Origin: Elusimicrobiaceae bacterium | GTDB taxonomy: Bacteria > Elusimicrobiota > Elusimicrobia > Elusimicrobiales > Elusimicrobiaceae | Direction: 5' to 3' | Length of the DNA: 64,000 nucleotides | Assembly: GCA_016281355.1 (NCBI GenBank) | Contig: JAEEIL010000025.1 | Coordinates: 62,001 to 126,000, forward strand | Part shown: positions 1-15,524 of the stretch, one piece after another | Numbering within the stretch: position 1 is the stretch's first letter | Layout of the letters: every line of letters starts with the position of its first letter | The notes under the pieces: generated by a model | The model's database searches: none | Seen by the model: the letters and a program-made list of their open reading frames with translations, nothing else | What the model was told of the DNA's origin: nothing | Position numbers and translations under genes: made by a program

Positions 1-1254
1 TTGCTCTGCCCTTTCTACTGCGCGGGAAAGAAAGACCTCCGCATCTTCAAATTGTTTATCACGGAAATACAATACTCCCAAATTATTTAGCGCAATAGCA
101 TCTTCGGGATATTTTGAAAGATGTTTCCTCAATTCACTTTTAGCTAATTCATAATTCCCTTCCATAATATGGTTGCAAGCACGGTCCTGATACTGTGGCG
201 GGCGGCAGAATAATCCGCAAAATATACCAAGGCATATCGTTAAAGCAATAATTAAACCCTTTAAAGGGAATTGACCTAGCACAAAATCATATTCTTTAAA
301 ATCGGGCACTTTATAATTTCCTTGCAAGATTTCTTCTACCTTATTAAAGTTGAGTGTGATATCCGACAATTTATTTAATCCTGCTATAAAATTACGAAGT
401 TTAATACACGCGGCTTCATTTTGCCAACCGAAAACGTGTGCCCACTCAATCTTACGGTCATCATTAACACCAACTACAGCATTAATGGTATTGCGTTTAC
501 CGTTTTGCCAATATTGCTGCCAAAGCATAGCCTCACTAGATTTGGCATTTTTAAGTAAAATAAAATTAAGTTTTATATTCTTTTCGCGAAACCAACAGTT
601 ATAGTCGTCTAATTTACTGAGTAATTCCCACGCATCATCTTTATTTCGGGCTGTACCATAAACAGGCATTTCACCATATTTAACCAAGTGATATTTTTTA
701 ATATCTTCCTCGGTTAACTTTTCACTTTCATACACATTGGAACCCTTTAAAATAGGATTTTTATAAGAGCGATGCACATATTCATAACAAGCCGTATCAA
801 AAGTACCTGGCCACTCAGTTACAAAACAAGAACCTGATTCTATAATCTCGCCTTCGGCTTCCCATTCGTGGTCTACATAATCTTCTTCCTCATTACCGAA
901 TATCTCCACATATTGTTTATATCGTTCTTCGTCAATAGGGAAAGTATCGCCTTCGGCTACGGTAATTTTCCATTCTTCTTCGTGCTCAACTATCTCATAG
1001 GTTACTTCTTTTGTTTCTTCGTCTTCGTGTTTGATTTTTTCGGTCCAAGGTTCATAATAACGTGCTTCGGTTACATAAGTACCGAGTATTTCTTCATCTT
1101 GAACTTTCTCCGATTCAAAAGCTTTTGCTATCCCGATAATAATCCAAGCACAGATAGAACCGACCACAATACCTAAAATACCGAGTGATTCCCAACCCAT
1201 TAAAGGCGGCACTATCAGTAAAAAACAAAGGGAATATATAAATGCAATAACCAT
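1..1254 (-). CDS. TPR-containing membrane protein, C-terminus cut by window edge
   Basis: The minus strand is open from an ATG at 1254 to base 1, giving at least 418 residues with no stop. Residues 1-45 form two hydrophobic segments. An acidic, Glu/Lys-rich middle domain follows that I do not recognise, then another hydrophobic segment near residue 340-360. The visible end is a tetratricopeptide-like repeat (ALNNLGVLYFRDKQFEDAE, with Ala, Gly and Asn at the usual TPR positions). The ATG overlaps the stop of the LemA-like gene in a TAATG junction, so translation is probably coupled. It is the fourth gene of the operon behind the SAM riboswitch candidate at 3395-3480. No catalytic motif is visible; a scaffold or sensor role for the TPR is only an inference. 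Confidence 0.8.
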   Translation of the reverse strand, partial: MVIAFIYSLCFLLIVPPLMGWESLGILGIVVGSICAWIIIGIAKAFESEKVQDEEILGTYVTEARYYEPWTEKIKHEDEETKEVTYEIVEHEEEWKITVAEGDTFPIDEERYKQYVEIFGNEEEDYVDHEWEAEGEIIESGSCFVTEWPGTFDTACYEYVHRSYKNPILKGSNVYESEKLTEEDIKKYHLVKYGEMPVYGTARNKDDAWELLSKLDDYNCWFREKNIKLNFILLKNAKSSEAMLWQQYWQNGKRNTINAVVGVNDDRKIEWAHVFGWQNEAACIKLRNFIAGLNKLSDITLNFNKVEEILQGNYKVPDFKEYDFVLGQFPLKGLIIALTICLGIFCGLFCRPPQYQDRACNHIMEGNYELAKSELRKHLSKYPEDAIALNNLGVLYFRDKQFEDAEVFLSRAVERAEQ

Positions 1255-1751
1255 TAAATATTCTCCTTACCTGTGGCATAAACGTTGGCAGTATGGTCCG
1301 ATTTAATGACTGTAATTTTTATTTCCTGAGCATTAGGCAATAAAATATTTGCAGGGAAACTTTGAATAAATGTTTTATGCTCATTATATCGGGCGACAAG
1401 TAATCTTTGATGACTGAAAAACTCCTCACGGTTAATTTCAATAGCAGTAGCAAGTTGCTGTAAAACTGAGGTATCTAACGGGGGGTTATGCTCTACGATA
1501 AATGAAATATCTTTGCCCTGATAACGCCCTTCAATAAGTTTGGGGTAAACATCCTTAAATGCATCTAGATATGTATCAGATACATTTGTAATTTGCTTAA
1601 TTACCTTCCACATTTTATCGAAGTTGGCCTCACACACTTCCTGCTGTGCTTTAACAAGATTGCGAAGGCGAATTTCCGTATTGCTAACGGAAATAAAATA
1701 TCCTACTGCAAATACTACTAAGAGTACAACAACTAATAATATTCCTATCAT
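1254..1751 (-). CDS. LemA-like membrane-anchored protein
   Basis: This 165-residue protein has one N-terminal membrane segment (residues 1-22) followed by a helical, coiled-coil-type body. The segment after the membrane anchor (NTEIRLRNLVKAQQ) and the late motif NEHKTFIQSFPANILL fit the LemA family (N...LRN near the start, YN..IQ.FPAN near the end), so most of it should face the extracytoplasmic side. The length is close to the usual 180-200 residues. LemA proteins have no agreed biochemical function. It lies 11 bp after the ClpX-like gene and its stop overlaps the start of the TPR gene, so the three genes are probably co-transcribed and may work at the membrane. Confidence 0.78.
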   Translation of the reverse strand: MIGILLVVVLLVVFAVGYFISVSNTEIRLRNLVKAQQEVCEANFDKMWKVIKQITNVSDTYLDAFKDVYPKLIEGRYQGKDISFIVEHNPPLDTSVLQQLATAIEINREEFFSHQRLLVARYNEHKTFIQSFPANILLPNAQEIKITVIKSDHTANVYATGKENI

Positions 1752-1762
1752 TTTTATTCTCC

Positions 1763-3133
1763 TTATATTTCAATTTGAACTGCTTTTTCCAAAAATTGCG
1801 TTTGGAATAATTGCCCGACTTGCTGATGCAAACCTCTTGCCCCTAGGTGCCTTTCACAAGCATTATCTAGCAAGGTTTCAAGGGTTTCGTCAGATACTTT
1901 GTTAGATGTATGCAATAAGTCCTTATACTGTTGCAAAGGCCCGTTATGCGGGTTAAATAAGATTTTGCGTAAGTCTTCCTTCTCAAGCCCTTTTAACTGC
2001 ACGAAGTATGAAAAACGGCCTATTAATTCAGGTAACATCCCATAGGCAATAAAATCATCTGCTGTCAAAGTTTCCTTTTTAACAATAGGTGCGTGCGTAA
2101 AACCGACACTTTTATCAGTATGATTAACTTGTAAACTTTCAAATGCACCGCCCACTACAAAAAGCACTTGGGAAATGTCAAAATTCATAACATTTCTAAT
2201 TAAACTTTTCTCCTGCAAACGGTAACGTCTACTTTCTATAAGGCGCAAAAGTTCTACTTGTACATTTGTGGAAGCAGCCCCGCCATATCCTTCACTTCCA
2301 CGGCGTATTTTATCTATTTCATCTATAAAAACTATGGCTATAGGCATTTTACCTGCTGAAGAGTGTGGAATAAGAGGCCGCAAAATATCACTTACATCCA
2401 TACCGACATAACCTGTCTGCGTATATTGGCTGGCATCTGCGTGAATAAAAGGTATTTTTAGGATTTTTGCTAAGCATTGGCACATATAAGTTTTACCTGT
2501 TCCAGTTGGGCCGCTGATAAAAATATTGCTCTTATTAAATATTTGCCCGTTTTTGGCATTAGCACATTTAGTTAAATGCTCAAAAACACCTGCCACTAAT
2601 TTCTTTTTGGCATCATCTTGCCCTATTACATATTTATTAATTTCGGCTAAAACTCGCTTAGGGTTTAAGGTGCGTTTTTTAACTTTGCGTTTCCTTGAAG
2701 CGGGTGCAGTAAGAAAATTAACTTTTAAATCTATTCTATCACCAAGACCTATAAAAATACCTTCTGTAAACAATACACTTTTATGGTCTAATAAAATAGA
2801 CAAAACTTCTTGACGTGTTCCGAAAATTTGCCCTTTCGTTAACAAAGTAGATATCTGAAAGAAACTTGCGTTAAGCACACGTTGTAAATGTAATATTGAT
2901 ATGCGAAGCAGTAAGAACAGTTCTACATCAGATAAATTGTTTTTTTGAACAAAATCTGCCAGTGGTAGTTTGCTTGCATCAGAACGCAATAAACGCGTGT
3001 GAATATCCTTAAGATTTTGAACATACTCTGCTTCCTTGCAGGCAGTAACAGGGGTGTCGTTCCAATGTACTATATCTTCTATTAACTCTGCGCGGGAAGT
3101 ATATTTTGTAACTTTTTTAGTTTTATTTTCCAT
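1763..3133 (-). CDS. ClpX-like AAA+ unfoldase without the zinc-finger domain
   Basis: The protein has 456 residues. The N-terminal 150 residues do not show the ClpX zinc-binding cysteines. After that it follows ClpX closely: VIGQDDAKK, Walker A GPTGTGKT near residue 208, pore loop TGYVG, Walker B VFIDEIDK near residue 268, sensor-type VGGAF, PELIGRF, and a C-terminal GARGL small-domain motif. At the place of the ClpP-docking IGF loop it reads SVGF, which still satisfies the [LIV]-G-F pattern, so docking to ClpP is possible. Known ClpX proteins unfold substrates with ATP and feed ClpP. A dedicated ClpX paralogue in an operon with LemA-like and TPR membrane proteins is unusual. RBS AAGGAG is present upstream. 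Regulation is probably through the upstream riboswitch. Confidence 0.88.
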   Translation of the reverse strand: MENKTKKVTKYTSRAELIEDIVHWNDTPVTACKEAEYVQNLKDIHTRLLRSDASKLPLADFVQKNNLSDVELFLLLRISILHLQRVLNASFFQISTLLTKGQIFGTRQEVLSILLDHKSVLFTEGIFIGLGDRIDLKVNFLTAPASRKRKVKKRTLNPKRVLAEINKYVIGQDDAKKKLVAGVFEHLTKCANAKNGQIFNKSNIFISGPTGTGKTYMCQCLAKILKIPFIHADASQYTQTGYVGMDVSDILRPLIPHSSAGKMPIAIVFIDEIDKIRRGSEGYGGAASTNVQVELLRLIESRRYRLQEKSLIRNVMNFDISQVLFVVGGAFESLQVNHTDKSVGFTHAPIVKKETLTADDFIAYGMLPELIGRFSYFVQLKGLEKEDLRKILFNPHNGPLQQYKDLLHTSNKVSDETLETLLDNACERHLGARGLHQQVGQLFQTQFLEKAVQIEI

Positions 3134-3173: not shown

Positions 3174-3305
3174 TTAATAATCGCCATTACCTTCAATGAG
3201 TGCTTCATCGTGTCCGTAATTGTAATGAGGATAACCATTTGCTACAGGTACATAATACGCTTTTGCACTCATACAAGATATTCTATTCATATATTTTTTT
3301 GTCAT
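3174..3305 (-). CDS. 43-residue hypothetical peptide, first gene of the ClpX-like operon
   Basis: An ATG at 3305 preceded by AAGGAG at a good distance opens a 43-codon frame that ends at 3174, 40 bp before the ClpX-like gene. The peptide begins MTKKYMNRISCMSAK and continues with a Tyr/His/Gly/Asn-rich stretch, then an acidic end finishing in GDY. I recognise no family. It sits directly downstream of the riboswitch terminator, so it would be made only when transcription reads through. It could be a substrate or adaptor of the neighbouring unfoldase, a regulatory peptide, or simply a short orphan; the good RBS is the main support for translation. Confidence 0.55.
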   Translation of the reverse strand: MTKKYMNRISCMSAKAYYVPVANGYPHYNYGHDEALIEGNGDY

Positions 3306-3342
3306 AAGACTTCTCCTTATTTATTATGCCATCGGAGAGGAT

Positions 3343-3370
3343 AAAAAAGACCCATCGTCTCCGATGGGTC
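3343..3370 (-). terminator. Rho-independent terminator of the S-box-like leader
   Basis: Read on the minus strand, GACCCATCG and CGATGGGTC form a perfect 9-bp stem with a GAGA loop (3370 to 3349), followed directly by six T (3348-3343). Its 5' arm can instead pair with CGATGGG at 3403-3397 in the aptamer's last strand, which gives a mutually exclusive antiterminator. It stands between the aptamer and the 43-codon gene. Confidence 0.88.
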
Positions 3371-3394
3371 CTAATTACTACAAAGCTGTTTTCT

Positions 3395-3480
3395 TTCCCA
3401 TCGTTCAAGCATTAGCACCTTGCCTTATGGTAGGTTGCTGTGTAGTCATAGGGCTTGTCCCTCGTACACTCCTAATGGAA
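3395..3480 (-). ncRNA. Candidate SAM (S-box, SAM-I clan) riboswitch aptamer
   Basis: The minus strand holds the conserved S-box words in the right order: GAGGGA, GCCCTATGA, CAGCAACC, AAGGTGCTAA. GTGTA and TACAC form P2 around the GGG/CCC stem, exactly where the Bacillus yitJ-type aptamer has its P2. P1 can form from TTCCATT (3480-3474) with GATGGGAA (3402-3395) with one bulged G. The P1 3' strand contains CGATGGG, which can otherwise pair with the terminator 5' arm, so high SAM should favour termination (an OFF switch). P4 is very short or absent, so this may be a reduced SAM-I or SAM-I/IV type. It precedes a peptide, ClpX-like, LemA-like and TPR operon rather than methionine genes. Confidence 0.75.
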
Positions 3481-3484
3481 TTTA

Positions 3485-3540
3485 GGTTAACAAAAGACAT
3501 TTAGCCAGACTTCTGCTTAAATTTAATCTTTTGTTTAACC
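3485..3540 (-). other. Strong 5' hairpin of the riboswitch leader
   Basis: On the minus strand GGTTAAACAAAAGA (3540-3527) pairs with TCTTTTGTTAACC (3497-3485), 13 base pairs with one bulged A, around a 29-nt loop. It lies between the predicted transcription start and the S-box core. It is not part of the standard SAM-I fold. It may be a stabilising 5' hairpin or an additional sensing domain. Confidence 0.6.
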
Positions 3541-3550
3541 TTCTATATCT

Positions 3551-3579
3551 ATTATTGCATATTATGATTAATTTGTCTC
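3551..3579 (-). promoter_or_regulatory. Candidate sigma70 promoter of the riboswitch operon
   Basis: On the minus strand GAGACA (3579-3574) and AATAAT (3556-3551) are separated by 17 bp, matching the -35 and -10 consensus at four and five of six positions. The predicted start would lie near 3544, just ahead of the 5' hairpin and aptamer. Confidence 0.5.
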
Positions 3580-3651: not shown

Positions 3652-4341
3652 TTAAAATTTTGAAAGCCTGTACCTGATAAACTCATTAATTTGACGTTTA
3701 GAAACTCCTAAAGAAGCAAAATGTCCGTTTTTAATACGACGGGATTTTTCTCTAAAACTAACACTTTCTATCATTTCTACGTTAATCCGTTCCAATCCAT
3801 AACCACACACACTACTTCTCTTATAAACAGTAGCAAAAACTAAATAAACCATTTTCGATTTGCGGATTAAACAATAAGGTTTTGCAGATATCTGACGGCC
3901 ATCTGATACAATTTTTATGTAATGTTTTTCTTTAATGGCTTTTTGTAACTTAGATATAAGAGGACTTTTTGGCAATTTTGGATTAATTTCATAAAATCCC
4001 ATATCAGGAGAAAATAAATGACGTATATACTTGCAAGCAGGAACAAAATCATCCCCTGCTTGTTCAGTAGCTTCATATGCTATACACAAACTAGCTGCTG
4101 TCTGAGGGGTAAGTCCTATTTTTTCCAAAGACCATTCATCGTTAACACTGTATTTACCATTGTCTGAATCTACTTCAATAACAGCTTTTTTAATAAGTGA
4201 AATATCACGCAAAATAGTGCGGTAAGACGTATTACATTTCTTAGCCAGCTCTTCCGCTGTAAATTCTTTCCCTTTTTCGTCAGTCAAACATTTGAAAATG
4301 ATTGCCAAACGCTTTAATTTCGCCGTAATATCTTTGGACAT
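3652..4341 (-). CDS. HTH-WYL transcriptional regulator
   Basis: The protein has 229 residues. Residues 1-65 form a DeoR-like winged helix (AEELAKKCNTSYRTILRDI, recognition helix near residue 40). Residues 130-215 form a WYL-like sensor domain (IKIVSDGRQISAKPYCLIRK followed by a hydrophobic strand and LERINVEMIESV), although the literal W-Y-L tripeptide is not preserved. Such regulators often control phage-defence operons and sense nucleic-acid ligands. It lies 17 bp behind the methyltransferase gene, on the same strand, so it is probably the third gene of the helicase-methylase operon. Its target may be its own operon or the dyad at 3598-3618. Confidence 0.8.
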   Translation of the reverse strand: MSKDITAKLKRLAIIFKCLTDEKGKEFTAEELAKKCNTSYRTILRDISLIKKAVIEVDSDNGKYSVNDEWSLEKIGLTPQTAASLCIAYEATEQAGDDFVPACKYIRHLFSPDMGFYEINPKLPKSPLISKLQKAIKEKHYIKIVSDGRQISAKPYCLIRKSKMVYLVFATVYKRSSVCGYGLERINVEMIESVSFREKSRRIKNGHFASLGVSKRQINEFIRYRLSKF

Positions 4342-4358
4342 AGTATTAGTATAGCATT

Positions 4359-7300
4359 TTATGATTTTTTCTTAGGTTGTGATTCTTCTACTATTTTGAT
4401 TTCTTCCTCTGTTAAACCATATAGTTTATAAACCATTTGGTCAATTCCATCTTGATATGCTTTAACACGAGATTGTTTATCGGAGTTAGATAAATAATCC
4501 TTAGTTTGTGTAATAGCTAAGATTTTATCAACAACTGCAACAAATTGCTGTTGAATATCTATTCCTATTTTTTTAATAGGAATTTCCGATAATGGCGTTT
4601 GATAGAGTTCCAAATTATCACCTTTTCTTTTTCCTTTATTGTATAACCATACGTAATATAACTTTGAATTTAATAGTGCTAGAATATATTTTAATTTATA
4701 ATTATTTATTGGTGCAGTAATAAAATACACATCAGCACTGGCATACCATTCAGTTTCATTATACCCAAAAGTATTTGTAGTGCTTCTTTGAGGAACAACA
4801 ATTTTAGATGAAGTAAAAATGTCCTGTTTTCGAGGTCTATGTAAATAAGGCGAATTATGAGAAGAAACATCTATTATCTTCTTAAAATATTGGAGGTGAC
4901 AATTAATAGTATTATAATTAGCAATATCGGTTTTTTGTTTATCTAAATACAAAATATACTTATTGCAAGAATTATTAGTATAAAATCTAGATATATCTGA
5001 ATTTTTAAAAAATGGAACTAATAATTCTTTATCCTGATTATTTTGTATTTTAATGATTACTTTGTAATCTCTAATATTATTGCTGTCTAATACAAAAATC
5101 CCGTCTCCTTTTTGGGCTTCAATATTATATTTCTTTATATGTTTATTTGATATAGAATCAGCACCACTAACAATTCCTTGATTGATATGACAAATATTTC
5201 CTAATAATTGATGATTCTCTTTTATTTTATAGAGTATTCTATTAAGTGGCCTATTATCATCATTAGTTAATCGCATATAATTTTGCTCGGTCTCATATAA
5301 ATCAGACTGTGGAACAGAATAATAAGATGTTTCTTTATCATTCCAACTAATTATTAGATTTAGGTCATTATATTTAGCATTTCCCTTCCTAGAAGTGATA
5401 CAAGTTCTACAGATAGTTTTAGGAGAAGGAATATTCGTCTTTTGTAATAATGTTATTATATTATGTTGACCTAGTGCTGATTTAAAAATTTTAAATTCAT
5501 TGAAGTTTATAAGTTTTAACATACAAGCTCGCTGTTTAAAATCTGTTCTTAGTTTAGTCGCATTGGTAGCAGTAATATAATAATTAGTAGTGATAAATGT
5601 ACAAATCCCTTTATTTTTTAAAAGATTAAGTGCTAAATGAAAGAAAAAATAGAATAAATCCATTTTGCCCTGATAGAAACAAGATAAGAAGTTGCTCTTC
5701 TTTTTTACTGCTTGAAATACTTCCTTATTTCCTTTTTCTTTAATATAAGGAGGATTACCAATAACAATATCAAAGCCATCTTCTACATCAAACATCCAAA
5801 CAGGGTCAAACCATTCTGTAGAAAGATTATCAAATGGTTTCCATAATTGTAGTTTGATAATTTTTTCGTTTCCCCAATCATTTGCTTGTAAGGCTTCCAA
5901 CATTGCATATTGGGTATCTATAAATTTCTTCTTTAAAGTTTCTTTGCGTGTTCCAGAAGCAGCAAAGAATTCTTTTCTGTATGCACGTAATTGGGCGATA
6001 TAATCTTCTCCATTGAGGAAACTATTTACATTGGTTTCTTCTATTTGTTTACTGAGAATATCTTTTTCTTTTTCCAATTTTGAAATTTCTTTAGTAATTG
6101 CCTTTACTTGATTTTTTTGTTCTTGAGAAAAATTCCATATATTTCTGTCTTTTAATAATGAATGGTTTTTCTTGCGTTCAATTTCTTCAATAATACTTTG
6201 CCTCTTTTGTTTGAGTTCTAAAGTATTGTTGTTATCGAGTCCAATTAAAGAATTAGCACAAGTAAAATTAAAGTTTAAATTAGGCAAGGCTTGTGGATTA
6301 TCTGCTTCTTCTTCTACAATCAATGTTAGGAAAAAACGCAAACGGCAAATTTCTATAGCCATTGGTTGAATATCAACACCATAAATACACTTTTGAATAA
6401 GAGTTAATTTATTAGCATAGTCTAACATTTTGGAAGTTAAATTTTGGCTTATATTTATATTAGATTCTGGTAAACTCCTATAAATATCACCCGTTTCATC
6501 AATAATATGGATAATTGACATTATTTTTTGTAATATGCCCATAGGAAACGCGCCAGAACCTACAGCAGGGTCCAACACTTTAATTTCGGACAATACAGTA
6601 TAGAGTCTTTGTTTTTGTGTTAGAGTCAATTTATCTACTTTTGGTTCAAATTCAAATAGTGAATCAATAACAGTGTGGTCTATATCTGTTTTTGTATAAA
6701 GATATTGTTTCAAACTTTGGGTAACCATATAGTCCACAACTTCACGCGGAGTATAGTAGGACCCTGTTGCCTTGCGAACTGATTCTTTGGTTTCGGGGTT
6801 AATAGAGGCCAGTAAATTTTCAAAAATACGACCTAACATTTCTGGGTCTACTGCTAAATCGATATCAGTAGAAGTATTTTCATCAATAGTAAAATTATAA
6901 AGTTCAAAAACATTAAATAAACTTTCAAACCAAGAATTTTCTATTTTTAAAGTATTATAATTCTTTGATATATATAAATCATTCAACTCATAGCGATCAT
7001 CACTATCTGGATTAAATAATCCGCCATTTAGAAAAGGTATATCTTTATATTCACCTTCTTTACATTTTTTGATTCTATCTTTACATTCTTTATTTAGCGT
7101 TTCAAAAAATAATGGTTCTAATATATCGTGATAATAATTACCTTTACAATTTTTAACTGCTTTAGAAGAAATTAAATCATCTGAAATAAGAGATGTACCA
7201 TTGCTGCGGTACTTCTTTTTCAAAAACCAGCAAAAAACCAAACGTCCTATTAAACGAACTGAAAAATTTTGTAGTCTTTTAAATCCTTCTTCCGTATCAT

Positions 7301-7850
7301 TTACACCTGTAGGATGCTTAACATTTTTAATTAATTCATTAAAATGCTTTGATATTTCTCCATAGAATGTATCATTAACAACTTCTATAGAAAATCGTTT
7401 TAATAAATCTTCTTCATTAGTAACAGGATTGGAGAGTTGTTTAATAGCTGTATGTACCTTTTGGCCTTCCCCTACTAAAAAGGAATAACGGCGTGGATTA
7501 TTTGGTTTATTATTTGCCCAATCAAAAGTTACCAAAGATATACGAAAAGTATTAGAATATTTAGGTACGAAAAAGAATATTGCTCTTTGTGTAAAATCAC
7601 GACGACTTTTCATTATTTCTACAGCTTGTTTAGTAAGTCCTACACGAGCATCTGAAATATGATGATGATGAATTTCAAATACAGAAAATAACTTATTTTT
7701 TCCTAAGTAATAAGCAGTATCTATATATTCATATTTTTTCTTATCGACATTGACAACTCTTTCTTGCTTTGTAAAATTCGCGAAAAAAGAACTTAAGTCA
7801 TATAATACATCTTCCCTGTTATATTTGTTATACAAACTATTTAAAGCCAT
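4359..7850 (-). CDS. Large adenine-type DNA methyltransferase (Eco57I/PglX-like)
   Basis: The 1163-residue protein carries SAM-binding motif I (DPAVGSGAF, near residue 423) and catalytic motif IV NPPY (near residue 698), the N6-adenine/gamma-class signature. The long N-terminal half is of Eco57I or BREX-PglX style, with YYTPREVVDYMV just before motif I. A coiled insert lies at about residues 545-610. The C-terminal third is a specificity-type domain (LLNSKLYYVWLY). The predicted job is marking self DNA. It lies 20 bp behind the helicase gene and ahead of the WYL regulator. I see no certain nuclease motif of its own, so cutting may come from the PLD partner. A stand-alone type IIG enzyme is the alternative. 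Confidence 0.88.
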   Translation of the reverse strand: MALNSLYNKYNREDVLYDLSSFFANFTKQERVVNVDKKKYEYIDTAYYLGKNKLFSVFEIHHHHISDARVGLTKQAVEIMKSRRDFTQRAIFFFVPKYSNTFRISLVTFDWANNKPNNPRRYSFLVGEGQKVHTAIKQLSNPVTNEEDLLKRFSIEVVNDTFYGEISKHFNELIKNVKHPTGVNDTEEGFKRLQNFSVRLIGRLVFCWFLKKKYRSNGTSLISDDLISSKAVKNCKGNYYHDILEPLFFETLNKECKDRIKKCKEGEYKDIPFLNGGLFNPDSDDRYELNDLYISKNYNTLKIENSWFESLFNVFELYNFTIDENTSTDIDLAVDPEMLGRIFENLLASINPETKESVRKATGSYYTPREVVDYMVTQSLKQYLYTKTDIDHTVIDSLFEFEPKVDKLTLTQKQRLYTVLSEIKVLDPAVGSGAFPMGILQKIMSIIHIIDETGDIYRSLPESNINISQNLTSKMLDYANKLTLIQKCIYGVDIQPMAIEICRLRFFLTLIVEEEADNPQALPNLNFNFTCANSLIGLDNNNTLELKQKRQSIIEEIERKKNHSLLKDRNIWNFSQEQKNQVKAITKEISKLEKEKDILSKQIEETNVNSFLNGEDYIAQLRAYRKEFFAASGTRKETLKKKFIDTQYAMLEALQANDWGNEKIIKLQLWKPFDNLSTEWFDPVWMFDVEDGFDIVIGNPPYIKEKGNKEVFQAVKKKSNFLSCFYQGKMDLFYFFFHLALNLLKNKGICTFITTNYYITATNATKLRTDFKQRACMLKLINFNEFKIFKSALGQHNIITLLQKTNIPSPKTICRTCITSRKGNAKYNDLNLIISWNDKETSYYSVPQSDLYETEQNYMRLTNDDNRPLNRILYKIKENHQLLGNICHINQGIVSGADSISNKHIKKYNIEAQKGDGIFVLDSNNIRDYKVIIKIQNNQDKELLVPFFKNSDISRFYTNNSCNKYILYLDKQKTDIANYNTINCHLQYFKKIIDVSSHNSPYLHRPRKQDIFTSSKIVVPQRSTTNTFGYNETEWYASADVYFITAPINNYKLKYILALLNSKLYYVWLYNKGKRKGDNLELYQTPLSEIPIKKIGIDIQQQFVAVVDKILAITQTKDYLSNSDKQSRVKAYQDGIDQMVYKLYGLTEEEIKIVEESQPKKKS

Positions 7851-7870
7851 ATTCTTTTCCTCCGCTTGGA

Positions 7871-10800
7871 TTACTTAATAAATTCTGTAGATAGAATAAT
7901 TGTGATTTCTTTTTGTTGTTTTTCTACTTGATTTTTGAGTTTAATAAGTGTGTCTAAAAATTCAGGTGGAATACTTTTTTTCAATTGTATTTCAATTTGT
8001 TCAATATTTTTTATATGCTTAAAAGCATTACTTATTACTCGTAATTTGGCCTTACTTAAAAAACTTGTACAATTTAACAATTTGTTTAAATATATAGAAT
8101 CTGAATATTGTGATAGAGATTGCCAAGCAGTTCTTATTAACCTTTCATTATCCGTCTGTTCATTATCGAGATTAAAATCTAATCCTTGTTGAGCTTGCTC
8201 ATATTGCTCATAGAAAGCGTTTGTAACAGGAATAGATTTCTCTTCTTGTGAGGATTCAAACATTTTAATAGCTTCTTCATCAGTTATAGGAACTGTATTC
8301 CGTTCTTCCAAATCATAAAAACTAAAAACGCCTACATTTGCTCTTCTACCAAAAACTAACACTCCATTACGTTGATTTTCTTTCATTTTACGACCTATAC
8401 GTACTCTCGAAGGTAAATTTTTGGCTTGTTGATATAATACAGGAGCATTTTTTCTTATATTATTTAAAAATTCCTGACATTTTCTTTCCCAACTAATTTC
8501 TTCTGTATTATCTTCAATTTTGTGCAATAGAGAAGCTCTTATTGTTTCCTCTGATGTCAGATATCGAGTATCTTCACGAAACACTTCATCAATAATAGTA
8601 ATTTTCTTTTTGGTAATTTGCCTAATTCTAATTTCCGCTTCACCTATTTCTGTAGGAAAAAAGTTATAGATATGTAATTCATTAAATACTTTTCTATTGA
8701 TACGGTTAATACGTCCCACACGTTGAATTACTCGAGTCGGATTATATGGAATATCGTAATTAAATATAGTTCCTGCGAGATTAAGATTAATACCTTCACT
8801 TAGGGCATCTGTAGTAAGTAATAAATTATAGTCATCTTTCTTATTTTCGAAACTGGCGTCAAAATTGGCACGAATTTCTTCTTTAATTTTTTTAGAACGT
8901 GACGCGTCATAGGCAATTGATTTTATAATGCCATCATTTTTGGGCAAGTTATCTTCTAAATAGGCAATAGTATCTGCGAATTCAGAAAATAATACAATTT
9001 TCCTAGAAGGGTCCTTTTGTAATTGACGATATAATTCTGTTTTTAGAAGTGCTAATTTTTTATCATTTTTAGCAGTTAATCCTCTCCAGTCTTCTTGAAG
9101 TTGTTTTAAAAGTCTAATATCGTTTTTTAAATCTTGTTCAAATTCGGGTTTTAACAAATCCTTATGAATTAAATAAATGCCTGCTTCTACCAATTTCTCT
9201 TCTTGAGTTGGTTCTAAATGACTAATTGATTTAGCAAACAAATTGCCCGCTGATGAACTGGATGCTAAATCGTATTCAGTATTTCCTTCTTTAAATTCCT
9301 GAAGAGGTAAATCTTCCAAATCATCTAGTGTCGTTTTCTTGGAAACCAAAGCTCTATGTTTAGTTTGGAAGAAAGATAAAGTTTTCTCAGTAGCATCAAT
9401 AATATTATTAAGGGTTTCATTAAAAGACAAAATAGAACTTTCTAAGCGACGAACTAATAAACGTCTTAAAAAATTAGCATTGTTTTTCTGTGGGTCACCT
9501 AATACAGATAGGTATTCTGCTACATCAGATTTAAACTCATCTTTAACATAAGAGATTACTCTGTATCTTGCCGCTTTAAATTTACTCTGTTCTCCTGCTA
9601 CTAGTTCAAGAGTTTGTATATACTTGTCTGCAAATTTTCCAAAAGAATATTCAAGTAATTTGGGGTCAGAAATATTAGGAAAATCAATTCCATTTTTTAT
9701 TAAATCGTCTTTATATGACCCGAATTCCAAATCTTTACGATTGCGCCTTATTACAATTTCTTTAATCATATTTCTGATTTTTTCAGAAATCTTTTTATAT
9801 TCTTTTGCACTATCAGCATCATCTTTTTTGATTTTATTGTAGTCCTCAATAATACTATGCATAGAACTAGAAAGATTGTTAACCGATTTTAAGGTTGAAT
9901 ATCCTGGAATTTGAAATAAATTAATTAATGCAAAAACATCTTCTGGTTTATTGTTAAATGGCGTAGCAGATAAAATCATTACTTTATGTCCACGACAAAG
10001 CGTTTCTAGATTATTATAATCTTGTGTATCAGGGTTACGATAATTATGTGCTTCATCGAGTATTACTAAGTACTGACGATTAAGTTTTTGAGCATATTGT
10101 AGAGCACTCTCAATCTTTCCAGAACTAAATACTTGACTGTTAACATTCAAATGAACACAGTATTCTTTCCATTGCGGAATCAAATGTGGTGGAGCAATCA
10201 CTAATACAGGTAAATTAATATTTGCGGCAATAGTAGTGGCTATAATAGATTTACCCAAACCTACTACATCTGCCACAATAACCCCATTATGGTCATTAAG
10301 GCTTCTAAGTCCTTGTTCAATCGCATCAATTTGGTATTGCAAATCATTAAAGTTTTCACCCAATACTTGGCTCGGAGTTTTTAATCCTTCAATCTTGTGC
10401 ACATCAAAATACTCAATAAGTACTTTTAAATAAACTAAGAAAGGCGTTGGATTAGTAGAAGGCCAAATTTTACTAAACAATTCTGTTTGTATTTCTTGTA
10501 AAGTAGTTTCATCCGCCAATACTTGTGATTCCTTCCATAATTCGTTAAATATTCTTATACTTTCTTCTACAAATGGATTTTCTCTATGTTGCACGTTAAT
10601 TTCAAAGTTTTGCCCTAAACCATTTGCTGATAAATTGCTAGAACCCACAATCGTTGTTCCTAAAAAGTTTCCATTCTGACTATGTTTCGGGGAATTGTGG
10701 AAAATGTACATCTTAGCGTGACAAGGATTTTTGGTTTGTCTTACCTCTAAAGTTCCATTTTTAAGTTTATTTACAAACAAATTAAAAGCATCCCAACTTT

Positions 10801-11107
10801 CTTGGTTATCATACTCTCTATTATGACCAAGAATATCACAAAGTGACTGATACCAACATTGCCTCCGTTTTTGGGCATCTGGGAAGCCTTTACTGGAAGA
10901 AAATTCAATGTAATTGGAGATTCTAGATTCTGCTTGTAAACCTACCAAGATTTTAAGTTTCTGTTCTAAAGTAATATTTTTATAAAGTAATTGAAAACCA
11001 GAAAAATAAAAATATCCGACTAGAAAAAATAATTGGTCACTAGAAGGCAGAACATCATTAATTGTATCTTTTATTAATTTATTTTGATTGGTTATAAAGA
11101 AGCTCAT
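7871..11107 (-). CDS. PLD-family nuclease fused to SNF2/SF2 helicase
   Basis: The 1078-residue protein begins with a phospholipase D-type nuclease domain: HAKMYIF near residue 127 gives the HxK pair and GSSNLSANG near residue 155 completes the site. A superfamily 2 helicase follows, with Walker A VGLGKS (about residue 283), DEAH (about 349), SATPFNN and motif VI QRVGRINRIN (about 792). The C-terminal 200 residues are helical and unassigned. A single PLD HxK motif suggests dimerisation for cutting. It is the first gene of an operon with the methyltransferase and WYL regulator, consistent with a restriction-like defence function. The start follows GTGGAGAC. Expression is probably controlled by the structured leader at 11141-11389. 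Confidence 0.9.
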   Translation of the reverse strand: MSFFITNQNKLIKDTINDVLPSSDQLFFLVGYFYFSGFQLLYKNITLEQKLKILVGLQAESRISNYIEFSSSKGFPDAQKRRQCWYQSLCDILGHNREYDNQESWDAFNLFVNKLKNGTLEVRQTKNPCHAKMYIFHNSPKHSQNGNFLGTTIVGSSNLSANGLGQNFEINVQHRENPFVEESIRIFNELWKESQVLADETTLQEIQTELFSKIWPSTNPTPFLVYLKVLIEYFDVHKIEGLKTPSQVLGENFNDLQYQIDAIEQGLRSLNDHNGVIVADVVGLGKSIIATTIAANINLPVLVIAPPHLIPQWKEYCVHLNVNSQVFSSGKIESALQYAQKLNRQYLVILDEAHNYRNPDTQDYNNLETLCRGHKVMILSATPFNNKPEDVFALINLFQIPGYSTLKSVNNLSSSMHSIIEDYNKIKKDDADSAKEYKKISEKIRNMIKEIVIRRNRKDLEFGSYKDDLIKNGIDFPNISDPKLLEYSFGKFADKYIQTLELVAGEQSKFKAARYRVISYVKDEFKSDVAEYLSVLGDPQKNNANFLRRLLVRRLESSILSFNETLNNIIDATEKTLSFFQTKHRALVSKKTTLDDLEDLPLQEFKEGNTEYDLASSSSAGNLFAKSISHLEPTQEEKLVEAGIYLIHKDLLKPEFEQDLKNDIRLLKQLQEDWRGLTAKNDKKLALLKTELYRQLQKDPSRKIVLFSEFADTIAYLEDNLPKNDGIIKSIAYDASRSKKIKEEIRANFDASFENKKDDYNLLLTTDALSEGINLNLAGTIFNYDIPYNPTRVIQRVGRINRINRKVFNELHIYNFFPTEIGEAEIRIRQITKKKITIIDEVFREDTRYLTSEETIRASLLHKIEDNTEEISWERKCQEFLNNIRKNAPVLYQQAKNLPSRVRIGRKMKENQRNGVLVFGRRANVGVFSFYDLEERNTVPITDEEAIKMFESSQEEKSIPVTNAFYEQYEQAQQGLDFNLDNEQTDNERLIRTAWQSLSQYSDSIYLNKLLNCTSFLSKAKLRVISNAFKHIKNIEQIEIQLKKSIPPEFLDTLIKLKNQVEKQQKEITIILSTEFIK

Positions 11108-11703: not shown

Positions 11704-12876
11704 ATGTCTAATGATAACATAATATTAAACTTATGCGACGGAGAGTTTGGCGTAATCTCTAAAGGTCGCTCAGCAAGACACGCCTATTTGGATAAGGCTG
11801 AACAATCTGGGTATAAACAAAAATATAAACACGATGGTTCAGATGATTATATGCCAAATATTCACGTATATGCCAGCAAACAACTAGGTATTACAAGAGC
11901 AGAAATTCAAGTTTGTCCTAGTAAACTATTATATGGAACGAACATCTACGAAACTAAGGAAGAAGATTTTGAACGCTTCTTATCCTTGTTAGTAGAAAGA
12001 TTAGAATATGCAGGCATTTTAACGGATGAATCAGTATTACGGAATCACTATTTATCTGGTTGGGATGTAAATAAACCTATCATCCTTCCTTTTAGTTCTT
12101 CTGTTTTACGATTAATTTGCACTCATAATATACCACAACCTGCCAAATCTCGAAAAGGTTACACGGTATATGAAGAATCGGACGGTTGGAGTGTACATTT
12201 TAACTTCAAAGAAAAATGTATCAAAATGTATGACAAAACAGCAGAAGCATTGAAACATAATTGGATGCCTGTAGATTTAGCACCATTATTTAAGGAAAGT
12301 GGTTGTTGTTTGGTTAATTTAGAGTATACAATGAATAAGAAAAAAAGTATTGATTATGAACTAAAACTCATAAAAAGTCATCTTCCTAATACTCTAGAAA
12401 CAGCATTTAATAAAGAAGTATGTTCAAAGATATTACAATACAGAACTCTAGGTATATTTGAAAGATTTTTTACTATCTCAAATGATATGGTAAAACACTT
12501 AGCATCTATTGAACAATTCTGTGATATACATAAAGAATATAATGGATTACAGAAAAGAAATGCATTATTTGGTGCTGTTTGTAAGTTTATTACATTAGGT
12601 TATGCTGATTATTGTAAATACTTAAAACAACATTATTCACTGAAAGAAGTAAGAAATAACTTAAACCAACTTAAAAAACTTAATCTTTCTAGGCTGCCTG
12701 AAGAAAAGTTATTCAAAGATACTATATTAGAATCTCTATATTCTAATGATTATGTTACTAAGGATAGTATTATAGATACATTAGAGAGATATAAAAGAGA
12801 TAATTTTATACCCTATGAAACCACCGCAATACAGGAAAGTAAAAATTTTGAGGAGGACTCTGACAATGCAAGATAA
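11704..12876 (+). CDS. Putative replication initiator-like protein of a mobile element
   Basis: The 390-residue protein is preceded by AAAGGAG and starts MSNDNIILNLCDGEFG. It resembles phage or plasmid replication proteins of the II/X or Rep_trans style in overall order: an N-terminal strand-rich region, a central LRxE-like stretch (VNLEYTMNKKK) and a Lys-rich helical C-terminus. I cannot point to a definite HUH motif or catalytic tyrosine, so the family call is weak. Its context is strong: the next genes are an excisionase-like HTH protein (11-bp overlap) and a tyrosine integrase, so it is a core gene of the integrative element. It may nick or replicate the excised circle. Confidence 0.55.
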   Translation: MSNDNIILNLCDGEFGVISKGRSARHAYLDKAEQSGYKQKYKHDGSDDYMPNIHVYASKQLGITRAEIQVCPSKLLYGTNIYETKEEDFERFLSLLVERLEYAGILTDESVLRNHYLSGWDVNKPIILPFSSSVLRLICTHNIPQPAKSRKGYTVYEESDGWSVHFNFKEKCIKMYDKTAEALKHNWMPVDLAPLFKESGCCLVNLEYTMNKKKSIDYELKLIKSHLPNTLETAFNKEVCSKILQYRTLGIFERFFTISNDMVKHLASIEQFCDIHKEYNGLQKRNALFGAVCKFITLGYADYCKYLKQHYSLKEVRNNLNQLKKLNLSRLPEEKLFKDTILESLYSNDYVTKDSIIDTLERYKRDNFIPYETTAIQESKNFEEDSDNAR

Positions 12877-13072
12877 CACAAGCCCCTTAATGGATGTTAA
12901 AGAAGTAGCAACTTATTTACATCTTTCACCTGCAACAGTATATTCCAAAAGAACACGTGGAGAGTTCCCCAAAGGATGCATTGTTAAAATAGGTGGAAAG
13001 TTGTTGTTTAATAGAGCCAAGATAGAACAACTGGTGGAAGATTCTACGGAACTCCCTATCTATCACTCTTGA
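12866..13072 (+). CDS. Excisionase-like helix-turn-helix protein (AlpA/HTH_17)
   Basis: The chosen ATG at 12866 follows GAGGAGG at the correct distance and gives 68 residues. An upstream in-frame ATG at 12815 lacks a ribosome site. The body MDVKEVATYLHLSPATVY then FPKGCIVKIGGKLLFNRAKIE is a MerR-like winged helix typical of small excisionases. It overlaps the end of the replication gene by 11 bp and precedes the integrase. It probably bends att DNA during excision or regulates element genes. Confidence 0.82.
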   Translation: MQDNTSPLMDVKEVATYLHLSPATVYSKRTRGEFPKGCIVKIGGKLLFNRAKIEQLVEDSTELPIYHS

Positions 13073-13083
13073 TTTAAACTCGG

Positions 13084-13248
13084 TTATTTGGTTTTTTCAG
13101 ATTCTATTAATCTTTTAAGAGCCAATCTAATAACCGAAGATAAATTACGGTCTTCCCGTTGAGCATATACTTTAACACGGTTTAAAAGTTCTTCGGGAAG
13201 CGTAAAACTAATTGTTTTTATATTTTGTTCATTATCTTGTTTGGACAT
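13084..13248 (-). CDS. Ribbon-helix-helix DNA-binding protein
   Basis: This 54-codon gene faces away from the integrase. The protein reads MSKQDNEQNIKTISFTLPEE at the start, then a helix pair with AQREDRNLSSVIRLALKRL, which is the CopG/Arc ribbon-helix-helix fold (strand TISFTLP, turn near NLS). RHH proteins bind DNA as dimers of dimers and usually repress nearby promoters or act in plasmid maintenance. The divergent region between it and the integrase (13249-13349) has overlapping AT-rich repeats that could be its operator. No toxin partner is visible beside it. Confidence 0.78.
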   Translation of the reverse strand: MSKQDNEQNIKTISFTLPEELLNRVKVYAQREDRNLSSVIRLALKRLIESEKTK

Positions 13249-13291
13249 ATAAATATAATAGCAAATTTTGTTGAATATTAAAACATAATAC

Positions 13292-13332
13292 TTGACAATA
13301 TGATTAAATATTATGTAATATTATATTATAAT
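13292..13332 (+). promoter_or_regulatory. Integrase promoter region with AT-rich repeats
   Basis: TTGACA at 13292-13297 is followed after 17-18 bp by TAATAT-like -10 sequence, with a further TATAAT at 13327-13332. The stretch repeats ATATTAT words (for example around 13306-13326), giving possible binding sites for the RHH protein encoded divergently. Which -10 is used cannot be decided from sequence. Confidence 0.45.
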
Positions 13333-13349
13333 ACTGAGGAATATCGAAT

Positions 13350-14351
13350 ATGAAAATATACAAAAATAAAAAAGGACTTTACGGAATTGATTTTAATGAC
13401 GAGACAGGAAAGAGACACCGCTTCATTGTGGCGTCTAATGAATCTGCCGCTAAGGAAGAATTAGCCAAAAGGACAAATGCTTTTTACAAGGCAAAAAATG
13501 ACCCACGATTAATGCAAGAAAGTCAAATGTTTAAAGATATGGTTCCGTTATTCATTACAAATCACATCAATTTATTATCATCAAAAAAGACTTACTTGGC
13601 TATGTTTAATAAAATTGTTGAATACTTTAAAGATTATCGACTAAAAGACATAACACCTCTTGCAATACAAACTTTTTACCATCAAAAAGCACAGGAGACA
13701 TCTTTTTCTAATGCAAATAGATATTTCGGTATTTTAAGTAAGTTTTTTAATTGTCTAAATGATTGGGATAAATATAACGGACCTAATCCTTGTAAGAAGG
13801 TTAAAAAACATCCTGAAGAACCTTTTCAACCACACCCGATAAATGAGCAGGAAATTCAACAACTTATTACTTTTATCAGTAATGAAGTACAACCTTGCGT
13901 AATGATTGGGTTTTATACTGGATTAAGAAGGCAGGAATTATTAGGTCTTAGATGGGAAAATATAGATTTTAATTCTGAAACTATTTATATCCCAAAAACA
14001 AAAACAAAACAACCGCGTACTTTAGGTTTAACAACTGACATAAAACATATTTTGCAGAAATTAAACCCGCAAAAGGATGGTCTTGTTTTTAAAGTAACTC
14101 AAGAACAACTAAAATATCAATTGAATAAGGCGACAAAAAAATCAGGCATTGGGCATTTGAGGCCACACGATATGAGGCACTCTTTTGCAGTTAATTTTTT
14201 AAATCGCGGAGGAAGTTTAGAGCATTTACAAGGCTTACTTGGACACCGTAAAATTACCACTACACAACGATATTTAAAATTTAAAACTGGTGAAATTGCA
14301 AGTAAAATGAGAGTAATGGATGGGTTAATTCCTATTAATGTCATTAAGTAA
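13350..14351 (+). CDS. int: Tyrosine recombinase / integrase
   Basis: The 333-residue protein has an N-terminal arm-binding region, a SAM-like core-binding domain (residues about 65-150) and a catalytic domain. Visible catalytic residues are the first Arg in TGLRRQELLGLRW (about 190), HDMRHS (His and second Arg, about 272), LLGHRKITTTQRY with the His and the nucleophilic Tyr (about 307). Length and order fit phage- and ICE-type integrases. It most probably drives integration into the tRNA end whose remnant lies at 17841-17885, some 3.5 kb downstream. It is preceded by GAGGAAT as a weak ribosome site. Confidence 0.92.
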   Translation: MKIYKNKKGLYGIDFNDETGKRHRFIVASNESAAKEELAKRTNAFYKAKNDPRLMQESQMFKDMVPLFITNHINLLSSKKTYLAMFNKIVEYFKDYRLKDITPLAIQTFYHQKAQETSFSNANRYFGILSKFFNCLNDWDKYNGPNPCKKVKKHPEEPFQPHPINEQEIQQLITFISNEVQPCVMIGFYTGLRRQELLGLRWENIDFNSETIYIPKTKTKQPRTLGLTTDIKHILQKLNPQKDGLVFKVTQEQLKYQLNKATKKSGIGHLRPHDMRHSFAVNFLNRGGSLEHLQGLLGHRKITTTQRYLKFKTGEIASKMRVMDGLIPINVIK

Positions 14352-14368
14352 ACCATAGTAAATATCAT

Positions 14369-14414
14369 AATCTCCGCACAATCTCCGCATTTTTTGCGGA
14401 GATTATGGTATAAT
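14369..14414 (+). promoter_or_regulatory. Repeated dyad and extended -10 promoter of the Fic gene
   Basis: AATCTCCGCA occurs twice in direct order (14369-14378, 14380-14389) and once inverted as TGCGGAGATT (14395-14404). It is followed by TGGTATAAT, an extended -10 (TATAAT at 14409-14414), 22 bp before the Fic ATG. No T-run follows the dyad, so it looks more like an operator over the -35 zone than a terminator. Confidence 0.55.
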
Positions 14415-14435
14415 AATAGCATAGGAGAAATTATT

Positions 14436-15524
14436 ATGTACATATATCAAAACAAAAATTGGCCACACTTTACGTGGAATGAAACAAAGATTTTAAACTT
14501 ACTTGCACAAGTTAAATTGACGCAAGGTTTATTGCTTGGTAAAATGCAAAATATCGGTTTTAATATGCAAGATAATGCTTTGCTTCAAACATTAACCGAG
14601 GAAATATTAAAGTCCAATCAAATCGAAGGCCAACGTTTAGATATAGAACAAGTTCGTTCTTCCATTGCCCGAAAACTTGGCTTACATAGTGAAGATATAT
14701 CAGTTTCTAGAAATATTGAAGGTTCTGTTGATATGATGCTTGATGCTGTTCAAAATTATAATGCTCCTATTACAAAAGCACGTTTATGTGCTTGGCATAA
14801 AAATATGTTCCCCGAAGGTAAAAGCGGTTTTTACAATATCAAAGTAGGGGATTATCGTGATGATAAACTCGGCCCTATGCAAGTTGTTTCAGGCCCTATG
14901 GGAGCGGAAAAAGTTCATTATCAAGCCCCAAATGCAAGTGTATTAAACGACGAACTAAATAAAATGTTTGAATTTATAAATAAAGACGAAACAGATAATG
15001 TTTTGAAGGCTGCTATTGTTCATTTATGGTTTGTTATTTTGCACCCTTTTGATGATGGGAATGGGCGTATCGCACGGGCTTTATCTGAATTATTACTGGC
15101 AAGGAGTGAAAATTCATCTAATCGTTTTTATTCTATGTCTTCCCAAATAGCAAGGGAACGCAAGCAATATTATAAACAACTTGAAATTACCCAACAGGGC
15201 GATTTAGATATTACTGAGTGGCTTGAGTGGTTCTTAAATACTTTAGAAAATGCTATTAAAAATTCCGACGAACTTTTGAAATCGGTTTTAGCCAAAGCAA
15301 ACTTTTGGAAACAACATCAAGGTAAAACATTTAATGACCGCCAAAGCAAAATTATTAATATGGTATTTGACGGATTTAGCGGCAATTTAACCAGTACCAA
15401 ATGGGCTAAAATTTGTAAATGTTCCCAAGATACTGCAAGTCGTGATATAGTTGATTTAGTTAAACGCGGAATTTTAGAACAAATCGGTGCGGGAAGAAAT
15501 ACACATTATAAACTCATTAAATAA
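14436..15524 (+). CDS. Fic-domain AMPylase, class II autoinhibited
   Basis: The ATG at 14436 follows AGGAGA and gives 362 residues starting MYIYQNKNWPHFTW, the start of the DUF4172 domain common in these Fic proteins. The inhibitory helix carries SNQIEG (about residue 59-64), which fits [S/T]xxxE[G/N]; being N-terminal to the Fic core, it makes this class II. The active loop HPFDDGNGRIAR lies near residue 202. A C-terminal winged-helix segment (WAKICKCSQDTASRDI) suggests DNA binding. Fic proteins transfer AMP from ATP to proteins. Position between integrase and ATPase suggests cargo of the island, with a possible role in defence or element stability. It is probably autoregulated through the dyad upstream. 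Confidence 0.88.
   Translation: MYIYQNKNWPHFTWNETKILNLLAQVKLTQGLLLGKMQNIGFNMQDNALLQTLTEEILKSNQIEGQRLDIEQVRSSIARKLGLHSEDISVSRNIEGSVDMMLDAVQNYNAPITKARLCAWHKNMFPEGKSGFYNIKVGDYRDDKLGPMQVVSGPMGAEKVHYQAPNASVLNDELNKMFEFINKDETDNVLKAAIVHLWFVILHPFDDGNGRIARALSELLLARSENSSNRFYSMSSQIARERKQYYKQLEITQQGDLDITEWLEWFLNTLENAIKNSDELLKSVLAKANFWKQHQGKTFNDRQSKIINMVFDGFSGNLTSTKWAKICKCSQDTASRDIVDLVKRGILEQIGAGRNTHYKLIK

Follow-up and report, generated by a model that had tools for sequence, protein, structure and literature searches.

Feedback sensing in methionine metabolism is the textbook role of SAM riboswitches, and the SAM-I class classically reports the status of methionine and S-adenosylmethionine (SAM). In a 64,000-nucleotide stretch of an Elusimicrobiaceae genome (the window hereafter; assembly GCA_016281355.1, contig JAEEIL010000025.1, positions 62,001 to 126,000), a SAM-I leader lies on the minus strand before an operon with a ClpX-like unfoldase gene. 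No methionine or SAM gene is found among the downstream genes, as a first-pass annotation of this DNA had stated. What does a SAM sensor control at such a locus? The reading favoured here, at a probability of about 0.75, is that a SAM-I OFF switch gates a mobile accessory operon, which stands under WYL-type and SAM control and would be induced when SAM falls. At the level of sequence, this is supported by the aptamer, by the covarying, mutually exclusive pairings of P1, antiterminator and terminator, and by the conserved linkage to the ClpX-like gene. The order on the minus strand is WYL-type regulator, riboswitch, a 43-residue open reading frame (ORF), the ClpX-like gene, and the genes of a 165-residue protein, a TPR membrane protein and a 260-residue protein. 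The parts that carry the argument are as follows.

3395-3481, minus strand: SAM-I riboswitch aptamer, P4-less subtype (RF00162, 59.9 bits).
3395-3404, minus strand: P1 3' strand, alternative partner of the terminator 5' arm (antiterminator; permutation z -10.6).
3343-3371, minus strand: intrinsic terminator, 11-bp stem and six T, kept in all ClpX leaders.
3174-3305, minus strand: gene of the 43-residue peptide; relatives have 39-54 residues, and most end in FGYNDWDIYHG(A).
1763-3133, minus strand: ClpX-like AAA+ unfoldase of 456 residues with a new N-domain and no zinc domain (profile and alignment).
1254-1751, minus strand: 165-residue protein with an N-terminal membrane helix, phrog_1383 family (profile match).
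1-1254, minus strand: 5' part of the gene of a 527-residue TPR membrane protein, which starts at 1254 and continues outside the window.

The aptamer was identified with cmscan. RF00162 matches over the whole model (positions 1-108) at 3395-3481 on the minus strand with 59.9 bits (gathering threshold 44.4; E 2.2e-11 for 64 kb), and this is the sole Rfam match in the window at the gathering threshold. The covariance model, proposed as a check in the first-pass annotation, places the SAM riboswitch candidate in SAM-I. The S-box words read there (GAGGGA, GCCCTATGA, CAGCAACC and AAGGTGCTAA) follow each other in that order on the minus strand. The element is real, but the range given for it (3174-3579) extends 5' of the aptamer over a 56-nt hairpin and a promoter-like site. 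Core columns agree with the model. The pseudoknot between the P2 loop and J3/4 is present (CAAG/CTTG), with the compensatory pairs CGAG/CTCG and CAGG/CCTG in relatives. The core sequence, P1-P3, the P2-loop pseudoknot and the OFF logic of P1, antiterminator and terminator are shared with SAM-I (S-box) riboswitches of RF00162. Differences are the absence of P4, an extra anti-Shine-Dalgarno element pairing with the P1 5' strand, and accessory instead of methionine genes downstream. SAM-IV and SAM-I/IV (PMC6890682) share the binding-core clan, and SAM-IV also lacks P4, but P5 and PK-2 are not recognised here and RF00162 is the best model. By its sequence the aptamer is of the SAM-I binding class, P4-less subtype, and SAM binding is predicted.

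The expression platform follows directly. The terminator with six T, noted in the first pass, is located at 3371-3343 (minus strand). The P1 3' strand ACGATGGGAA (3404-3395) is able to pair with the terminator 5' arm CCCATCG, as had been claimed. The nascent leader folds into the antiterminator formed by these two segments, and the full leader into P1 plus terminator. Across leaders, own pairings were compared with permuted ones, giving z -10.6 for the antiterminator and z -4.0 for P1; the leaders are kin by descent and the permutation is uncorrected for kinship, which inflates these values and those for the X-Y pairing below. The structure supports a platform for ligand-dependent transcription attenuation with a terminator and a covarying antiterminator. 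With SAM bound, P1 would retain its 3' strand, the terminator would form and the operon would stay silent. At low SAM, the P1 3' strand would pass into the antiterminator, and RNA polymerase would read into the genes of the peptide, the ClpX-like protein, the 165-residue protein and the TPR protein.

ClpX-like homologues occur in 18/90 Elusimicrobiaceae genomes. Close homologues (51-100% identity, own included) have an above-cut-off SAM-I match just upstream in 17/17 genomes, while it is found in 0/2 of the distant ones (35-36% identity), both loci being without riboswitch. The association is therefore not accidental, and the riboswitch control of the ClpX-like operon, proposed in the first pass, is supported by linkage across divergent homologues. 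Chance similarity is ruled out by the covariance score together with the 17/17 linkage. A riboswitch stranded by insertion of an element, its former methionine gene having been lost, is ruled out as well, because linkage and terminator persist across homologues of 51-89% protein identity. The named relatives that share this leader are metagenome-assembled genomes of Elusimicrobiota, mostly from ruminant and other animal guts.

The use of the S-box outside methionine genes, put forward in the first pass, is borne out in a regulon wider than the window could show. RF00162 gave 35 SAM-I matches in 29/90 Elusimicrobiaceae genomes. Outside the ClpX loci, 18 matches precede small accessory ORFs, with 0 recognisable methionine genes (most judged by eye). 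The own genome (1.5-Mb assembly) has two matches, the operon leader and C6:22505-22591, and none at its metK (C45). The C6 leader (L004, minus strand) and its first ORF (MSKLEELLEKEGEIGF...) are similar to their counterparts on a Clostridiales contig (L112), which suggests transfer across phyla. In other Elusimicrobiota families, canonical SAM-I leaders (about 60-86 bits) precede genes named by eye as threonine synthase, homocysteine-type and cysteine synthase. A pattern scan of GTDB for the shared P2 sequence found 54 stretches in Elusimicrobiota, Clostridia, Erysipelotrichaceae and Gastranaerophilales, and a scan of IMG/VR found one viral contig with the subtype; both counts are lower bounds because the scan favours one P2 sequence. 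The family-wide matches and the leaders of G102 and G103 came from RF00162 and are free of this bias. Among 25 subtype leaders inspected outside Elusimicrobiota, one lies at metK (L142) and most lie before small unknown proteins, some before N-formylglutamate amidohydrolase-like or DUF2130-like proteins (names by eye). Some of the same Clostridia have canonical SAM-I at metK (L245, L246, L247, L255). Across several gut phyla, the subtype, as identified from sequence, is thus found almost only before accessory genes unrelated to methionine synthesis, which suggests that the genes behind it switch on at SAM exhaustion. No report of this regulon was found in the literature on SAM riboswitches with phage defence, prophages, mobile elements or dual control, of which few subscription journals and preprints were covered. 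As a separate observation, leaders of Gastranaerophilales and of the viral contig (L117, L124, L130, L143, L158, L109) stand before a MEQQ... protein, followed in L143 by Mu-type transposase-like genes.

A second lock on the same leader is proposed from three further elements.

3467-3480, minus strand: X, the P1 5' strand with J1/2 and the first P2 bases; partner of Y (pairing analysis).
3329-3340, minus strand: Y, anti-Shine-Dalgarno element CCTCTCCGATGG (pairing analysis).
3310-3318, minus strand: Shine-Dalgarno site of the 43-residue ORF, AAGGAGAAG (sequence).

In subtype leaders, Y (CTCTCTGTGG and variants) lies between terminator and Shine-Dalgarno site, directly 5' of the latter. It has two possible partners, the Shine-Dalgarno site, which it would mask, or X (CCATAGAGAG and variants). 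Joint changes of X and Y occur in the pairs CTATCAAGAG/CTCTTGATAG, CCTATAAAGAG/CTCTTATAGG and CCATAAAGAGCG/CGCTCTTTATGG. Against dinucleotide shuffles, the pairing reached a mean z of -3.24 in 62 accessory leaders and -0.17 in 19 canonical ones (Mann-Whitney p 4e-9). Own pairs against permuted pairs gave z -8.5, and one leader per X class p about 0.001. Two accessory-type SAM-I leaders of another Elusimicrobiota family (L285 and L286, from G103 and G102) have a 12-bp X-Y match, CCATAAAGAGCG/CGCTCTTTATGG, with z -7 to -9. In this mechanism, the P1 5' strand freed at low SAM would pair with the anti-Shine-Dalgarno element and expose the ribosome site of the first ORF. Covariation of the P1 5' strand with the masking sequence supports a second lock for the subtype as a whole. 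For the ClpX operon itself it is only a suggestion, since X-Y is weaker in ClpX leaders. Terminators that also contain the ribosome binding site have been described (Barrick and Breaker, 2007; PMC2258182). Such dual expression platforms likewise could block both transcription and translation; here, terminator and masker of the ribosome site are separate and draw on opposite P1 strands.

The products of the operon were compared with known proteins. The 43-residue peptide is under purifying selection by sequence comparison (dN/dS 0.08-0.51 among intact relatives), and the ClpX-like gene shows a dN/dS of 0.10-0.15. The closest PDB match of the ClpX-like protein is ClpX (6sfw, E 4.6e-57). Both share the AAA+ core, Walker A and B, a GYVG-type pore loop and an IGF-type ClpP loop; Walker A and B, the GYxG pore loop and the [VI]GF loop are kept in 16/16 aligned homologues. 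The ClpX-like protein differs by a largely helical N-terminal domain of about 150 residues instead of the zinc domain, and it scores below the ClpX equivalog cut-offs (191.5/370.75 bits for TIGR00382, 220.1/359 bits for PRK05342). A canonical ClpX above the equivalog cut-off was found in none of the 18 genomes of the genus, and ClpP is encoded in the own genome (C38:54818-55363), which makes a partnership of the ClpX-like protein with host ClpP plausible from the gene content. Viral proteins match just its AAA core, with 32-36% identity. Distant ClpX-like proteins of about 420-570 residues occur in Elusimicrobiota (L028, L029, L085-L095), some of them as neighbours of agmatine deiminase-like and WYL genes.

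The peptide, the ClpX-like protein and the TPR membrane protein named in the first-pass annotation stand, with the ORFs as described; its label "LemA-like" for the 165-residue protein finds no Pfam or PDB support. Pfam LemA (PF04011) gave no match at E<=1, no LemA chain was found at E<=10 in PDB, and the AF2 model (pLDDT 53.6) is too poor for a LemA comparison. The protein matches phrog_1383 (virion structural protein) with E 2.8e-30; no close viral relatives were found in IMG/VR. Jumbo phages (Tenacibaculum phage PTm1, Lak phages) carry a pair, phrog_1383 and phrog_2087, homologous to the 165-residue protein and to the N-terminal 350 residues of the TPR protein. The two are adjacent in PTm1, PTm5, pT24 and MT837876. 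Identity is 20-38%, and the TPR part lies outside the phage matches. The product would be a membrane-linked unfoldase passing substrates to host ClpP and made only at SAM depletion.

Upstream of the aptamer, three further features were located.

3485-3540, minus strand: hairpin 5' of the aptamer and 3' of the promoter, GGTTAAACAAAAGATT...GTCTTTTGTTAACC, an RNA element or operator (fold z).
3551-3579, minus strand: promoter-like site, GAGACA, 17 nt, AATAAT, extended -10 (consensus scan, 9/12 matches, weak).
3652-4341, minus strand: HTH_11/WYL-type regulator, upstream of the riboswitch; a homologue lies directly upstream in 11/15 loci.

Promoter-like sites of this quality are no more frequent in the window than in shuffled sequence. 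In relatives, clear TTGACA-17-TATAAT or TTGACG-17-TATAAT sites stand farther upstream in the leader. In the majority of other accessory leaders, a promoter-like site immediately precedes P1; at that place, ClpX leaders have extra stable structure. The upstream 90 nt fold with z -3.9; the means are -2.9 for 17 ClpX leaders and -0.7 and -0.1 for other leaders. The element and its counterparts in 16 relatives fall into two main sequence types. No Rfam family matched it at the gathering threshold. In the larger leader group it is stable but not covarying, as almost no two-sided changes were found even at the best alignment slide. It may represent a tandem RNA element, or else an operator. In ten leaders of the larger group, a TTGACA-17-TATAAT-type promoter lies between two GACATTnAAATGTCG-type inverted repeats, which we infer from sequence to be operators of the WYL-type regulator. 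The promoter would probably be under this upstream-encoded repressor or activator.

The genomic surroundings differ between ClpX-like loci, so the cassette is probably mobile. Around the operon of the window lie the following genes.

4359-11107, minus strand: next to the WYL regulator on its upstream side, a type IIG restriction-methyltransferase-like protein together with an HKD+Snf2 helicase.
11704-15524, plus strand: replication-type protein, tyrosine recombinase and Fic-domain protein.
L003 10767-11705, minus strand, past the left window end: type VI retron-like reverse transcriptase and adjoining XRE-type gene, downstream of the operon.

The genes at 11704-15524 are a probable integrated element adjoining the operon. 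A tRNA gene lies near the G060 cassette (L022 1080-1151), a possible insertion site. Within about 10 kb, defence neighbours were found in 4/15 loci: type IIG restriction-modification (RM) with HKD-Snf2, a type VI retron reverse transcriptase, or type III RM. Type III RM stands beside the loci of G003 and G070, and a retron reverse transcriptase near that of G031. PADLOC families matched at E<=1e-25 numbered 59 near the loci and 9 in control stretches, counts of overlapping families and not of systems. The operon proteins themselves gave generic AAA and WYL matches only, and the core proteins had a good fit to no PADLOC family.

Several observations weigh against the favoured reading. P4 is absent by a 17-position deletion in the RF00162 alignment; the binding class is kept as SAM-I because P4 is a peripheral helix, also missing in SAM-IV. 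The peptide ORF is broken in three copies (G059, G061, G031). The genes of the 165-residue and TPR proteins are present in 10/15 neighbourhoods examined, and 5/15 are without both. X-Y is weak in ClpX leaders (z -1.5 to -2.0 in the own leader, -0.4 to -1.8 in G003), and kinship inflates the pairing statistics. Defence neighbours belong to a minority of loci, and 4/15 does not differ significantly from the 0/9 of control stretches. The claim of a SAM-gated operon is much firmer than any of the following accounts of its use. Its role most likely lies in stress or in conflict with phages or mobile elements, not in methionine supply.

A methionine or SAM starvation response of gut bacteria, for instance proteome turnover by the ClpX-like protein and ClpP that recycles amino acids, is a tentative possibility. 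It would suit the classical role of SAM-I as reporter of methionine and SAM status, and the presence of ClpP with canonical ClpX absent. Against it speak the patchy occurrence and mobility of the operon, the kinship of its membrane partners with jumbo-phage genes, and the unrelated small genes behind the same switch subtype. Rather doubtful is a portable silencing leader, which would travel with foreign genes of no common role and silence them as long as SAM is plentiful. In four lineages, many unrelated gene families do stand behind near-identical leaders, and the likeness of the C6 leader and ORF to L112 fits. Such a silencer leaves unexplained why the leader is retained by 17/17 ClpX-like operons at 51-89% protein identity, with operators and a 5' element of their own.

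WYL regulators are typical of defence operons, and the operon has one. Its mobile, patchy occurrence (18/90 genomes), the RM systems or retrons beside it in 4/15 loci, and the 59 against 9 overlapping PADLOC families could point to a phage alarm. The riboswitch would sense the SAM depletion that phages cause when their SAM lyases or hydrolases disarm SAM-dependent restriction, and it would induce a back-up defence made up of the peptide, the ClpX-like protein and the membrane proteins. Phage T3 SAM lyase breaks down SAM and inhibits MetK, and it blocks BREX as well as RM (PMC11580459), so that a switch responding to low SAM would be a natural back-up alarm. This account appears unlikely, with most loci lacking an obvious defence neighbour and the core proteins fitting no PADLOC family well. 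We know of no SAM-degrading phages of these hosts. About as unlikely is the broadest version. Here, mobile and defence-associated genes across gut phyla would have recruited the subtype to sense SAM depletion, which phages may bring about, and a double lock would let one P1 strand govern termination and the other the access of ribosomes; that would make the ClpX-like operon the first riboswitch-gated back-up immune operon.

Two objections concern the switch itself. Control of the 43-residue peptide only, with clpX-like under its own promoter, is improbable. In its favour, clpX-like starts about 40 nt after the peptide stop and persists in some relatives with broken peptide ORFs; against it, a scan of this strand of the window gave neither a terminator-like site nor a sigma-70-like promoter between the two genes, and the gap is very short in several relatives. 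A decayed aptamer or a changed ligand, with SAM sensing lost, is hardly credible, for although P4 is absent and subtype scores (mostly 44-65 bits) lie under most canonical SAM-I matches (about 60-90 bits), the core columns fit the model, the P2-loop pseudoknot covaries, the expression platform is conserved and one subtype leader stands at metK (L142).

The proposed two-strand lock offers a testable design of expression platform. In several gut phyla, accessory operons stand behind this subtype; a metabolite sensor has thus apparently been reused to time the expression of foreign or conflict-related genes. If loss of SAM in phage attack were the trigger, this would be an RNA-based sensing of sabotaged SAM-dependent immunity.
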